Made by a program: the position numbers and the translations under genes
Part shown: positions 13,098-21,221 of the stretch, in pieces
Position numbering within the stretch: position 1 is the first letter of the stretch
Layout of the letters: the number at the start of each line of letters is the position of its first letter
Notes under the pieces: model-generated
The model's database searches: none
The model's input: the letters and a program-made list of their open reading frames with translations, nothing else
Told to the model about the DNA's origin: nothing
NCBI RefSeq assembly: GCF_034343125.1
Contig: NZ_CP139957.1
Location: 186,001 to 250,000 of the forward strand
DNA: 64,000 nt
Direction: 5' to 3'
Source: Caldicellulosiruptor danielii
GTDB taxonomy: Bacteria > Bacillota > Thermoanaerobacteria > Caldicellulosiruptorales > Caldicellulosiruptoraceae

Positions 13098-14337
13098 TTA
13101 ATCAATCCTCTCTAATTTTTCAAATTTATTTTTGTAAGTGTAGAAACTATCTTTATCGGCTAAAGCAAGTCCACTTTTTATTAAGTAAGCATTGATAAAG
13201 ATTTTGTTTTTAAGGTACAAATAAGCATTTACATTATTGTTTTTTACAGTAGAGTTGCTATCGTAGCGTAAAAAAACTTCTTTATTCAACACATAATTTT
13301 TTAAGTATTCTACAGCCTCCTTTTCCTTTTCTTTTTTTATTTTTACCCCTAATAATTTTACTTCTAAACCACTGTTAAGTTTAACTGTATCAGCAGAGAC
13401 TATTTCAGAAACTTTAAAATATTGATTTTTTTTAGGTTCAATTATCTTAGGATCGATTATGGGTGATGCATCTTTGATGCGTGGTTCATATTTCACAGCT
13501 TTTATCTCAGGAGTTTCGATTTCTTTTTTAATAGTCTCAATCTTATAAAGGAACGAGTTATTAATTGTATTTAACTTTTTATTTATTACCTCTAAAAAAT
13601 CTGGATTGATTTCATACCCTATTCCATTTCTTTCAAGTTCTAAGGCAACTTTCAAGGTTGTTCCGCTACCCAAGAATGGATCTAATATTGTGTCTCCAAC
13701 AAATGAAAACATTTTAATTAATCTATATGGAAGTTCATCAGGGAACATGGCTTCATGTTCAGTTTGTTTTTCACCTTTGAAATACCAGTGCCCGTTAAAG
13801 TATTCTTTCCACTCTTCCTTTGCCAAGATTGATTTTTCTTTGATTTCAGAAGACACCTTTAGAGATTTTCCAGGTTTTTTGAATATAAGTATAAATTCAT
13901 AATCAATTTCTATCATTCCATTTGGTGGATATGGGTAAGAACCCATAACATTTGCTCCACCACTTGTATTCATAGTGGTTTTTTTCTGCCAAATTATTGC
14001 TCCCATATAATCAAATCCTATATCTTCACACTGAGCAATTATCTCAGAGTGTAATGGGATTATTTTATATCTGCCATAGACTATAGAACGTGCGAATTGG
14101 TCACCAATATTAATACACAAACGGCGCCCCTTCTTTAAGTACTCTAAAACATTCTTGCCATACCCGATACAAATCTTTTAAGTACTCATGAAGTGTTTGA
14201 CCATATCCTATTTGGTTTTCTACACCATAATCTTTTAAATGCCAATAAGGCGGTGAAGTTATTATCAAATCGATTGTTTCATTATCTATTTCAGACATAT
14301 TTCTGCTATCTCCTATGATTATTTTTCCCCAATTCAT
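13098..14337 (-). pseudogene. Site-specific DNA methyltransferase (probable N4-cytosine, M.MjaI-like) with fused SNase-like domain; one frameshift
   Basis: ATG 14337 follows AAAGGAG, and a TATAAT box lies at 14389-14394 (complement). The first 66 residues carry GDSRNMSEI and the catalytic motif TSPPYW, then run out of frame. The second frame resumes as RLCINIGDQFARS and carries the SAM-binding motif DPFLGSGTT. The order IV then I marks a beta-class enzyme, and SPPYW is typical of N4-cytosine methylation. Removing one G from the run at 14127-14130 joins the frames as KEGRRLCINIGD, so this is a single +1 event. The last about 110 residues look like a staphylococcal-nuclease fold (VSADTVKL, VKLLGVKI, AYLYLKNKIFINAYLIKSGLA), but most nuclease catalytic positions (the two Arg and the Asp/Glu of VDTPE) are missing. 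It precedes the MjaI-like nuclease by two bases. Confidence 0.82.
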
Positions 14338-15746: not shown

Positions 15747-16964
15747 ATGTATAAAACACAGAAAAATCATTTAAGATGTAACAAACAAACTTATAAACTG
15801 TTAAGAATTTTGTGTCATACTTCAAAAAATCTCTACAACTATGCTTTGTATCATGTCAGGCAACACTTTTTTAAAACTCAAAAGCATCTAAAGTATGAAA
15901 GTGTATACCACATTGTAAAAGAAAATGACAACTATAAGCTTTTGCCATCACAGGTTGCACAGCAAACACTTATCTCTGTTGATGAGACTTTTAAATCTTT
16001 TTTAAGTCTTTTGAAAGCTAAAAAAGAGGGAAAGATAGACAAAAAAGTTTCAATACCCAAATACTTACCGAAGGATGGGATGTTTCAGATTGTATTTTCA
16101 AAAGACCAATTTAAGATAGAAGGAGAAAAGGTACGTTTAAGTCTTGGCAGGGGTTTTGCAAAAGAGTTTGGAGAAAAGTTTATGTATTTTGATATGCCCA
16201 AAAACATCATAGGCAAAAAGATTAAGGAAGTGAGGATAATACCAAGGTATCATGGCAGATGGTTTGAGGTTGAGTATGTGTATGGAGAGGAAGAAAGGTT
16301 TTGCAGTCTTGATAAGAGCAGATACTTATCAATAGACTTAGGTTTAGATAATTTTGCGGCTGCAGTTGATACCATTGGGACTGCCTTTTTGATAGAAGGC
16401 AGGTTTATAAAATCAGTCAACCGATGGTACAACAAAGAGAGGGCAAGACTACAATCAATTTACAGCAAGCAGGGGATAAAATCTGGGAAAAAGCTTGCAA
16501 AGATTTCCTTTAAGAGGCAGTATATAATTGACAACTTTTTGAATCAAGCTATTAACACAATAGTTAAGCATTGTTTAAAAAATCAAATAGGTAATGTAGT
16601 GATAGGTAAGATGGAAGGGATAAAACAAGAGATAAATCTTGGCAGGGTGAACAATCAGAATTTTGTAGCAATACCCTATGAGAAGTTTAAAAGGAAGCTC
16701 AAACTTAAGTGTAAAGAGTATGGGATAGAATACATTGAGGTAGATGAAAGTTATACATCAAAGAAGTGTAGCAGATGTGGGATAGTAGATAAGAGCAATA
16801 GGAAACACAGGGGATTGTATGTATGCAGAAGATGTGGGAAAGTAGTAAATGCAGATATAAACGGAGCAATAAACATACTTGCAAAAGTAGCTGGTGAGTC
16901 TGCTGCATGGCAGATAACCAGTAGTGGGTGTGTGAACCACCCTGTGAGAATAAGGGTAGCATAA
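15747..16964 (+). CDS. tnpB: TnpB RNA-guided nuclease (IS605 OrfB family)
   Basis: The 405-residue protein is full length for TnpB. The RuvC-like residues are all present: D197 in LSIDLGLDN, E290 in IGKMEGIK and D370 in NADINGAIN. The zinc ribbon CSRCG...CRRCG sits between the last two. ATG 15747 follows an AGGTG site. TnpB proteins cut DNA guided by an omegaRNA copied from the 3' end of their own element, which helps retain the transposon. Here the 3' end of tnpB plus the following hairpin is the expected omegaRNA source. Without tnpA, the element must be mobilised in trans or is immobile. Confidence 0.95.
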   Translation: MYKTQKNHLRCNKQTYKLLRILCHTSKNLYNYALYHVRQHFFKTQKHLKYESVYHIVKENDNYKLLPSQVAQQTLISVDETFKSFLSLLKAKKEGKIDKKVSIPKYLPKDGMFQIVFSKDQFKIEGEKVRLSLGRGFAKEFGEKFMYFDMPKNIIGKKIKEVRIIPRYHGRWFEVEYVYGEEERFCSLDKSRYLSIDLGLDNFAAAVDTIGTAFLIEGRFIKSVNRWYNKERARLQSIYSKQGIKSGKKLAKISFKRQYIIDNFLNQAINTIVKHCLKNQIGNVVIGKMEGIKQEINLGRVNNQNFVAIPYEKFKRKLKLKCKEYGIEYIEVDESYTSKKCSRCGIVDKSNRKHRGLYVCRRCGKVVNADINGAINILAKVAGESAAWQITSSGCVNHPVRIRVA

Positions 16965-19161: not shown

Positions 19162-19335
19162 AAAAAAATCAGCTCCTTTTTAAAAAGGCAGAATGTTTGC
19201 TAATCATATTTATTATATTATATATCATTTGTGTTATTGTTTAAATAAAATATATCGCAGGCGTTCTTTCTAACATTCTGAGTTCACAAAAAAGAAAAAA
19301 TTCTAAATAGTCGACTTCTAATATTTCAAAAAGTA

Positions 19336-19491
19336 TGTTATAATATTAACAAACAAAATATTTGATCCTGACTTAGAGGGCAAAATGGCCTGATAAGGAG
19401 GGGATGTAAAGATGAAGAAGAAGATATCCACCTCTTTTGGCTAAGGATGATGCTTTGGATACGTAAAAGGTCAGGAGAGGTGGATTTTTTA
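19336..19491 (+). promoter_or_regulatory. Transcription attenuator leader of the TM1266-hydG operon
   Basis: An extended -10 promoter (TGTTATAAT, 19336-19344) precedes a structured leader. A closing helix can form between TCCTGAC (19366-19372) and GTCAGGA (19470-19476). ATCCACCTCT (19426-19435) has two partners. Upstream, AAGGAGGGGAT (19395-19405) gives an antiterminator of 11 pairs with one bulge. Downstream, AGAGGTGGAT (19476-19485) gives a perfect 10-bp terminator followed by T6 and more Ts. The two are mutually exclusive. I do not recognise a known riboswitch class. The antiterminator also covers a ribosome site and small open frame. Confidence 0.75.
19412..19444 (+). CDS. Possible 10-residue leader peptide inside the attenuator
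   Basis: ATG 19412 sits eight bases after AAGGAGGGG and encodes MKKKISTSFG then TAA. Its codons 5-8 are the shared strand of the terminator and antiterminator, so a ribosome on this frame would directly decide which forms. This could be chance, since the purine-rich strand must exist for the antiterminator anyway; spacing and start codon are nevertheless ideal. Confidence 0.4.
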   Translation: MKKKISTSFG

Positions 19492-19520
19492 TTTTTACAT
19501 TAAAAGGGAATGATGCTTTT

Positions 19521-19766
19521 ATGGAAAGGAGAATTGGTGTTATTGGAATTGTTGTTGAAAACAGAAAAGAGGTGGCGGATAAGCTCAACAAAATTCTAAG
19601 CGAATATGGTGATATCATTGTTGGAAGAATGGGTATACCATATAAAGAAAGAGGGCTTTGTGTAATCTCACTCATAGTTGATGGGACAACTGATGAGATT
19701 GGTGCGCTGACAGGGAAGCTTGGTAGCTTGCCAGGTGTGAAGGTAAAGAGTGCTCTTACAAAATAA
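19521..19766 (+). CDS. TM1266-family iron-only hydrogenase system putative regulator
   Basis: The 81-residue protein starts at ATG 19521 (weak AAGGGA site about 13 bases away). It has the ferredoxin-like/ACT-like fold pattern of the TM1266 family: RRIGVIGIVVENR, then GRMGIPY, CVISLIVDG, and GALTGKLGSLPGVKVK. The family is encoded beside hydG in Thermotoga and clostridia and is presumed to sense a ligand or regulate; it lacks a helix-turn-helix. It lies 21 bases before the hydG start and downstream of the attenuator, so it may act on its own leader RNA (speculation). Confidence 0.9.
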   Translation: MERRIGVIGIVVENRKEVADKLNKILSEYGDIIVGRMGIPYKERGLCVISLIVDGTTDEIGALTGKLGSLPGVKVKSALTK

Positions 19767-19787: not shown

Positions 19788-21221
19788 ATGTTTAGAAAAG
19801 ATGAGTGGGAAAGAGCTGAGTTTATAAATGATGAGATGGTATTTGAGATACTTGAAAAAGGGAAGCAAAACCAAGATAGAGCAGAAGATATAATTCAAAA
19901 AGCATTGAATCTAAACGGGCTTGAACCTGAGGAGGTTGCAACACTTCTTTATATAGATGATAAAGACCTTTTGGGAAAACTGTTCAAAGCTGCAAAGCAG
20001 GTAAAAGAGAGAATCTATGGCAAGAGAATTGTCCTTTTTGCCCCACTTTACATCAGCAACTTTTGCGTCAACAACTGCCGATACTGTGGCTATCACAGGT
20101 CAAACACTAAGATGAAAAGAAGAAAACTTACAATGGATGAGATACGAAAAGAAGTTGAGATAATAGAGTCTCTTGGGCACAAAAGAATTGCTCTTGAGCT
20201 TGGCGAAGACCCCAAAGAAGCTCCAATTGAATATGTTATAGATGCCATAAACACCATATATTCTGTCTACAAGGAAAAAGGCAATATAAGAAGAGTGAAT
20301 GTCAACATCGCTGCAACCACAATTGAAGAATATAGAATGCTAAAAGAAGCAAAAATTGGCACATATGTGCTTTTCCAAGAGACATATCATCGCCCAACCT
20401 ATGAATACATGCACCCCGAAGGTCCAAAATCAGATTACGACTGGCATACGATGGCAATGGACAGAGCAATGCAGGCAGGGATTGACGATGTTGGTTTAGG
20501 GGTTTTGTTTGGGCTTTATGACTACAAGTTTGAGGTAGTAGGATTGATTTTGCATGCGAAGCATTTAGAAGAGAGGTTTGGTGTGGGTCCGCATACAATC
20601 TCTGTTCCACGAATTCGTCCTGCAGAGGGTGTTGAGGTTACAAAAGAAAAATATCCTTATTTGGTATCTGATGACGAGTTTAAAAAGATTGTTGCTATAA
20701 TCCGCCTTGCAGTGCCCTATACTGGCATGATTTTATCAACAAGAGAAAGACCGGGTTTTAGAGAAGAAGTAATTGACCTTGGTATATCCCAGATTAGCGC
20801 CGGGTCTTGCACAGGTGTTGGTGGATATACACTTGAATATGAAGGAAAATCAACTGGAGACTTGGACGAAGACCTTGCACAGTTTGAGGTTGAGGACAAA
20901 AGAAGTCCTGATGAGGTCATAAGAACTCTTTGCGAGGCTGGTTATATCCCGAGCTATTGCACAGCTTGCTACAGAAGAGGAAGGACAGGGGATTTGTTTA
21001 TGCAATATGCAAAGACAGGCGATATTCAAGACTTTTGCACACCAAATGCACTTTTGACCTTTATGGAATACTTAGAAGACTACGGGTCCGAGAAAACTAA
21101 GGAAATTGGGAGAAAATTGATATATGAGAGTTTGAATCAAATAAAAGATGAAAAGATGAGAAAAGAAACAGAAAAAAGGCTTGAGATGATACGACAAGGT
21201 GACAGGGATTTGTATTTTTGA
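19788..21221 (+). CDS. hydG: [FeFe]-hydrogenase H-cluster radical SAM maturase HydG
   Basis: Start chosen at ATG 19788 (MFRKDEWERAEFI), twelve bases after GGAG. The 477-residue protein has the radical-SAM motif CVNNCRYC (CX3CX2C), the TIM-barrel core, and the HydG-specific C-terminal cluster site CTAC...C in SYCTACYRRGRTGD followed by FCTPNALLTF. HydG cleaves tyrosine to p-cresol plus CO and cyanide, and delivers an Fe(CO)2CN synthon to the hydrogenase H-cluster together with HydE and HydF, which are not in this window. It shows that the organism makes [FeFe] hydrogenase. Confidence 0.97.
   Translation: MFRKDEWERAEFINDEMVFEILEKGKQNQDRAEDIIQKALNLNGLEPEEVATLLYIDDKDLLGKLFKAAKQVKERIYGKRIVLFAPLYISNFCVNNCRYCGYHRSNTKMKRRKLTMDEIRKEVEIIESLGHKRIALELGEDPKEAPIEYVIDAINTIYSVYKEKGNIRRVNVNIAATTIEEYRMLKEAKIGTYVLFQETYHRPTYEYMHPEGPKSDYDWHTMAMDRAMQAGIDDVGLGVLFGLYDYKFEVVGLILHAKHLEERFGVGPHTISVPRIRPAEGVEVTKEKYPYLVSDDEFKKIVAIIRLAVPYTGMILSTRERPGFREEVIDLGISQISAGSCTGVGGYTLEYEGKSTGDLDEDLAQFEVEDKRSPDEVIRTLCEAGYIPSYCTACYRRGRTGDLFMQYAKTGDIQDFCTPNALLTFMEYLEDYGSEKTKEIGRKLIYESLNQIKDEKMRKETEKRLEMIRQGDRDLYF

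Follow-up and report, generated by a model that had tools for sequence, protein, structure and literature searches.

The window analysed here is a 64-kb stretch (64,000 nucleotides) of the Caldicellulosiruptor danielii genome, in which a TM1266 family gene and hydG are separated from their promoter by a leader (19336-19520). Much of the hydrogen made by living organisms is produced at the [FeFe]-hydrogenase active site; to our knowledge, TM1266 has so far been only a "putative regulator" with no known target. The features of the region are:

19335..19352, + strand: Rex-operator-like palindrome ATGTTATAATATTAACAA over the -10 box TATAAT (19339-19344), seen in the sequence of nearly all leaders of the genus
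19366-19372, + strand: 5′ strand of helix P1, TCCTGAC (UCCUGAC), overlapping the CUGA of the core, complementary to 19470-19476 and paired in the minimum free energy (MFE) folds of partial transcripts ending at 19475-19480
19368..19401, + strand: core RNA hairpin (CUGA 19368-19371, CUUA 19372-19375, GAGG 19376-19379, CUGA 19390-19393, UAAG 19394-19397, GAGG 19398-19401), present in 12 of 12 genus genomes, with symmetric base counts (105 distinct sequences) and stem covariation
19395-19405, + strand: 5′ strand of the antiterminator, AAGGAGGGGAT, from sequence
19395..19405, + strand: purine tail AAGGAGGGGAU, from sequence, partial-transcript folding and ORF spacing
19412..19444, + strand: leader ORF MKKKISTSFG*, whose last codons form the terminator 5′ arm
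19426-19435, + strand: strand shared by the two hairpins, ATCCACCTCT, from sequence
19426..19491, + strand: predicted intrinsic terminator, stem about 19426-19442 with about 19469-19485, then a T-run (-26.7 kcal/mol)
19470-19476, + strand: 3′ strand of P1, GTCAGGA (GUCAGGA), common to the terminator 3′ arm, from constrained folding
19476-19485, + strand: 3′ strand of the terminator, AGAGGTGGAT, followed by the T-run, from sequence
19521..19766, + strand: TM1266 family protein gene (TIGR03959, 122 bits)
19788..21221, + strand: hydG (TIGR03955, 658.6 bits)

Architecture of the TM1266-hydG leader

A first-pass annotation, made from the sequence alone, had described mutually exclusive hairpins in this leader, and every strand and pairing that it named was found at the position it had given. 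The MFE of the 185-nt leader is -60.7 kcal/mol, against -32.8 ± 3.5 kcal/mol for 200 dinucleotide shuffles (z -8.0). Sought in close relatives, as had been suggested, the leader was found with TM1266 in all twelve genomes of the genus examined, its strands unchanged or nearly so and an intrinsic terminator predicted in each; TCCTGACTTAGAGGG, GCCTGATARGGAGGGG, TCCACCTCTTTTG and GTCAGGAGAGGTGG are invariant or nearly so. The apex of the antiterminator varies in length and sequence between species, yet folding predicts the hairpin in every one of them. Within the genus, P1, P3 and the terminator arms hardly vary, and the telling covariation is that of the core stem described below.

Judged by its sequence and predicted folding, the leader is a transcription attenuator, a 5′ leader with mutually exclusive terminator and antiterminator, as the first-pass annotation held. 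The purine tail overlaps the outer strand of the core and is at once the Shine-Dalgarno sequence of the leader ORF and the 5′ strand of the antiterminator helix P3. In predicted folds of partial transcripts, the full core motif forms in transcripts up to 19425, the motif stem with P3 at 19436, and P1, P2 and P3 together at 19475-19480, and the terminator is favoured once its 3′ arm is complete. In this leader the terminator is predicted to be stabler than the antiterminator (-44.0 versus -35.4 kcal/mol), so that any antitermination must be kinetic or ribosome-driven.

The reading frame that had been noted within the leader is in frame in 12 of 12 genus leaders: an ATG or TTG placed 6-9 nt past GGAGGGG begins 10-14 codons that read through TCC ACC TCT TTT NNN to a stop codon. 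The chance of such a frame is about 0.22 per leader; the twelve genomes are related, so these chances cannot simply be multiplied. The frame, the spacing of the start and the stop nevertheless persist through several length changes. Inspection of the twelve translated ORFs revealed no obvious regulatory codon run: Lys and Arg codons are few and variable in number and place, and the common STSF stems from the terminator arm. Outside the genus, a candidate ORF of any kind accompanies 22 of the 66 terminator-bearing copies of the motif, and many of these are probably spurious. Conservation of the ORF is shown only in this genus, and elsewhere the RNA core occurs without it.

The Rex-like palindrome lies at the promoter. 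For the orthologous C. bescii operon, Athe_0168-hydG, a Rex site is listed 181 bp upstream and EMSA is reported to show that Rex binds there; in a rex deletion mutant the operon changed by a log2 of about -0.2, with no derepression (PMC6391272). The lack of derepression leaves room for a second layer of control but is not specific evidence for one, because several other Rex targets also fell in the mutant (PMC6391272). Rex acts on initiation at a promoter that its putative operator overlaps, and the RNA element would be a separate layer. Hydrogenase maturation promoters of the Thermoanaerobacter(ium) type upstream of hydG (L004-L019) carry a similar TTGTTGAA...TTAACAA just 5′ of their own copy of the motif.

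A dyad-symmetric RNA hairpin

Within the leader lies a conserved, widely recurring core (19368-19401) that the first-pass annotation had not set apart. It is a 34-nt hairpin in which both strands read CURA-N4-RARG, so that the 4-bp stem, which covaries, is flanked by two identical purine-rich internal loops, each the two-fold symmetry mate of the other. The regions upstream of hydG in other families contain a common hairpin of the form CURA-N4-RARG-loop-CUGA-N4′-RARG, from which a covariance model was built with 35 copies and then enlarged to 111. The model matches the C. danielii leader with E 1.7e-7, this sequence being itself part of the model. All E-values rest on a shortened calibration, alignments A5 and A6 tend towards the model structure, and the genomes are related. 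RNAalifold recovered the same structure unaided from the 35-copy alignment.

Among 105 distinct copies, both sides of each of the four stem pairs have changed in 42-63 sequences, and the stem covariation score is 0.736; shuffles score 0.206, and a shift by 1-3 columns leaves no more than 0.176. Since some copies had been picked by a pattern that contains pairing, the stem test was redone without any pairing requirement. In loci picked by HydG or TM1266 protein alone (1.07 Mb), the unpaired signature occurs 42 times in sense and never in antisense orientation, and at least three of the four stem pairs are present in 37 of 40 distinct copies, where 9.6 are expected and 18 was the maximum in 2000 shuffles.

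The symmetry extends to the base counts of mate columns (C105/C104, U105/U102, A100/A103, A103/A93, G104/G102), and the mixed columns match too (column 15, A54 G50, with column 43, A60 G41; column 17, G82 A22, with column 45, G81 A21); the one exception is column 9 (G70 A33), whose mate is G101. The geometry reads C-G, U-R, tandem R.A/A.R, four Watson-Crick pairs, tandem R.A/A.G, R-U and G-C, where the non-canonical pairs of the loops are deduced from the sequence. Dyad symmetry of this kind would be needed by a binder that acts as a homodimer, or by a pair of symmetric ligand sites. Each internal loop is a symmetric 2x2 loop and lacks the 3-nt bulge next to tandem G.A that defines a kink-turn. 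A structured core with covariation is what one expects of an aptamer, and equally of a protein site.

No family of Rfam 15 (4227 families) reached its gathering threshold anywhere in the window, the best sub-threshold matches on the leader have E above 1 and are attributable to chance, and no relevant match was found at the motif in 12 related loci. Known riboswitches are ruled out by the gathering and E-value thresholds of Rfam, which bears out the earlier impression that the leader resembles none of them. A literature search, conducted largely outside the subscription journals, found no description of the element or of a riboswitch for hydG, TM1266 or hydrogenase. The core hairpin appears to be a widespread regulatory RNA, not described before, that serves to control how the [FeFe]-hydrogenase active site is assembled.

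Distribution and expression platforms

Model matches at E ≤ 0.05 occur in 110 of the 398 genomes of the phylum, the weakest of them including chance matches. The gene directly 3′ of the motif in the fetched loci is hydG, hydE, hydF, TM1266 or a gene for a membrane protein of 165-187 residues; four such membrane proteins were scanned, of which three reach the cut-off of PF12822 (ECF transporter S component) or come near it and the fourth does not match this family. Genes of this S-component-like type lie directly behind the motif, with no hyd gene in the fetched stretch, at eight loci (L170, L178, L179, L184, L185, L186, L190 and L191). They apparently represent an uptake system tied to H-cluster metabolism, which might be a clue to a missing precursor or effector that is taken up from outside. 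At another locus (L180:196-2885), an ABC transporter of the Ssu/NMT1 type (permease, ATPase and binding protein) follows a motif copy, and several loci have two copies of the motif in tandem. A protein of about 100 residues encoded between hydG and hydE (L182:2245-2544) matched nothing in Pfam or NCBIfam; L181, L183, L187, L298 and L299 hold its likely counterparts.

In 80 TM1266 loci from named genomes, gathered by protein, 43 of 44 matches to model R1 at E ≤ 1 and 49 of 50 to model R2 are in the sense orientation, mostly just 5′ of TM1266 or the next gene. Outside the phylum, TM1266 loci with the motif come from records named Smithella, Syntrophus, another Deltaproteobacterium and Riflebacteria, and weakly KSB1; two Thermotogota TM1266 loci had no motif match. 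The core hairpin is kept, then, from thermophilic Clostridia to several other phyla. Some matches were set aside: second model matches in the genus of the window (E 0.004-0.02) lie in coding regions and are due to chance, the single matches in three genomes without TM1266 (G252, G155 and G042) likewise lie in coding regions, and about 15 dispersed R1 matches in one genome (G086, family f8; E about 0.01; e.g. L295 and L296) are probably an unrelated repeat, because the better model R2 does not find them.

An intrinsic terminator is predicted within 220 nt after the motif in 74 of 104 copies, compared with 24/176 for same-locus, 16/104 for antisense and 14/104 for shuffled controls (13-15%). In 21 of the 74, the complementarity of the tail to the 5′ arm or loop of the terminator reaches p < 0.05, against 3.7 expected from shuffled arms (binomial 5e-11). 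Copies with no terminator mostly stand at the start of a gene, where the purine tail serves as the Shine-Dalgarno sequence. With either layout, the tail becomes unavailable once the outer half of the motif closes, and binding should therefore turn the gene off.

TM1266 as candidate binder and the alternatives

Among genomes with hydG, the motif (E ≤ 1e-3) was found in 79 of 181 that have TM1266 and in 1 of 30 that do not (p 7e-6, a co-occurrence that is phylogenetically confounded), and the lone match among the 30 lies in a coding frame. A second model revealed nothing convincing in these 30 genomes, and it located further copies beside TM1266 in genomes missed by the first. Four families (f7, f43, f70 and f84) each hold members with both TM1266 and the motif and members with neither. 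Many genomes with hydG and TM1266 have no recognisable motif, and one genome (G294) has the motif with no detected TM1266; its assembly is in 130 contigs, and relatives of the same genus have TM1266. The motif lies 5′ of TM1266 in many loci, which together with the co-occurrence is the arrangement of an autogenous leader. The AlphaFold2 model of TM1266 (pLDDT 96) has a beta-alpha-beta-beta-alpha-beta fold that Foldseek matches to 2NZC and to the C-terminal domain of NikR, with no ribbon-helix-helix or other DNA-binding part. An ACT-like sensor that lacks a DNA-binding domain, is encoded in the operon and tracks the RNA is the best candidate binder, and TM1266 has about an even prospect of being the protein that binds the core hairpin.

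Accordingly, the leader may be read, with confidence evenly balanced, as an OFF-type transcription attenuator ruled by a new symmetric RNA element whose most likely binder is TM1266. To what the computation shows (the element with its covariation and symmetry, the regulon, the terminators and the complementarity of the tail) this reading adds a proposed polarity, binder and effector. When the element is bound, the outer CURA/RARG loop would close and hide the purine tail AAGGAGGGG. The hidden tail could not pair with the terminator 5′ arm to form the antiterminator (P3, with P1) and, in this genus, could not start the leader ORF, so no ribosome would cover that arm; the terminator would then form and TM1266-hydG would be off. 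A free element would let the polymerase pass, by antitermination or by translation of the leader. In species with no terminator, the tail provides the Shine-Dalgarno sequence for whichever gene comes first (hydG, hydF or the transporter), and it is translation that binding would block. Most likely TM1266 itself would be the binder, acting autogenously with an H-cluster-related effector.

The first-pass annotation had offered a ligand-binding RNA, a ribosome-mediated attenuator and a site for TM1266 without ranking them. The strongest competitor to the TM1266 reading, clearly less probable but a serious one, is a metabolite riboswitch in which the hairpin itself would be the receptor for a small molecule of H-cluster metabolism, perhaps with a symmetric pair of binding sites; the OFF logic would be unchanged and TM1266 would be just a co-regulated gene. 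Compact conserved purine internal loops, a compensatory stem, terminator and Shine-Dalgarno platforms, tandem copies, and a mix of ECF S components and one Ssu/NMT1-type transporter typical of riboswitch regulons all suit it, and the TPP, FMN and Moco/Wco riboswitches likewise place OFF platforms over cofactor biosynthesis and transporters. Unlike those, the element has no Rfam relative and consists of a single symmetric 34-nt hairpin (seven Watson-Crick or wobble pairs, two outer pairs and two tandem purine loops) with no recognisable pocket or pseudoknot. Against a riboswitch also counts that the 30 genomes with hydG but not TM1266 gave no convincing copy. Dyad symmetry, and the close association of the motif with genomes that have TM1266, tip the balance towards a TM1266 site over a ligand-binding RNA.

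Selection of the hairpin by leader-peptide translation alone is improbable. The ORF of this genus overlaps the terminator arm as in trp- or his-type attenuation, has a Shine-Dalgarno sequence at good spacing and ends at a stop codon inside the terminator 5′ arm, but it looks lineage-specific and lacks a codon run for a sensed amino acid, and the symmetric core, found elsewhere without an ORF, would be left unexplained; purely ribosome-mediated attenuation is therefore unlikely in general. Still less credence is due to another RNA-binding protein, such as one resembling CsrA or L7Ae: the conserved purine tail contains GG and the size is typical of a protein site, but the GG of the core is base-paired and not in a loop, the kink-turn bulge is missing and the distribution follows TM1266.

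The TM1266 reading has precedents in PyrR (the pyr leader) and ribosomal-protein leaders, which are likewise autogenous, choose between terminator and antiterminator and sometimes sequester a Shine-Dalgarno sequence; here, by contrast, the hairpin is two-fold symmetric, the putative regulator is NikR-C/ACT-like, the pathway is another one and the binding is putative. In its widest form, held with confidence a shade under even, the proposal is that TM1266 may be an RNA-binding metabolite or metal sensor of NikR-C/ACT-like fold whose oligomer binds a two-fold symmetric double-stranded RNA operator and controls H-cluster biosynthesis and ECF uptake in many anaerobes. It would give the orphan TM1266 family a target and allow a direct test of whether a metabolite-sensor fold can act on RNA; the regulon itself links an ECF transporter S component, so far uncharacterised, to the biosynthesis of the H-cluster.

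Elsewhere in the window, a DNA methyltransferase-like gene (13098-14337) is apparently split into two overlapping frames, and 15747-16964 encodes a TnpB-like transposon-encoded protein in which a C-terminal CxxC zinc motif was recognised by eye.
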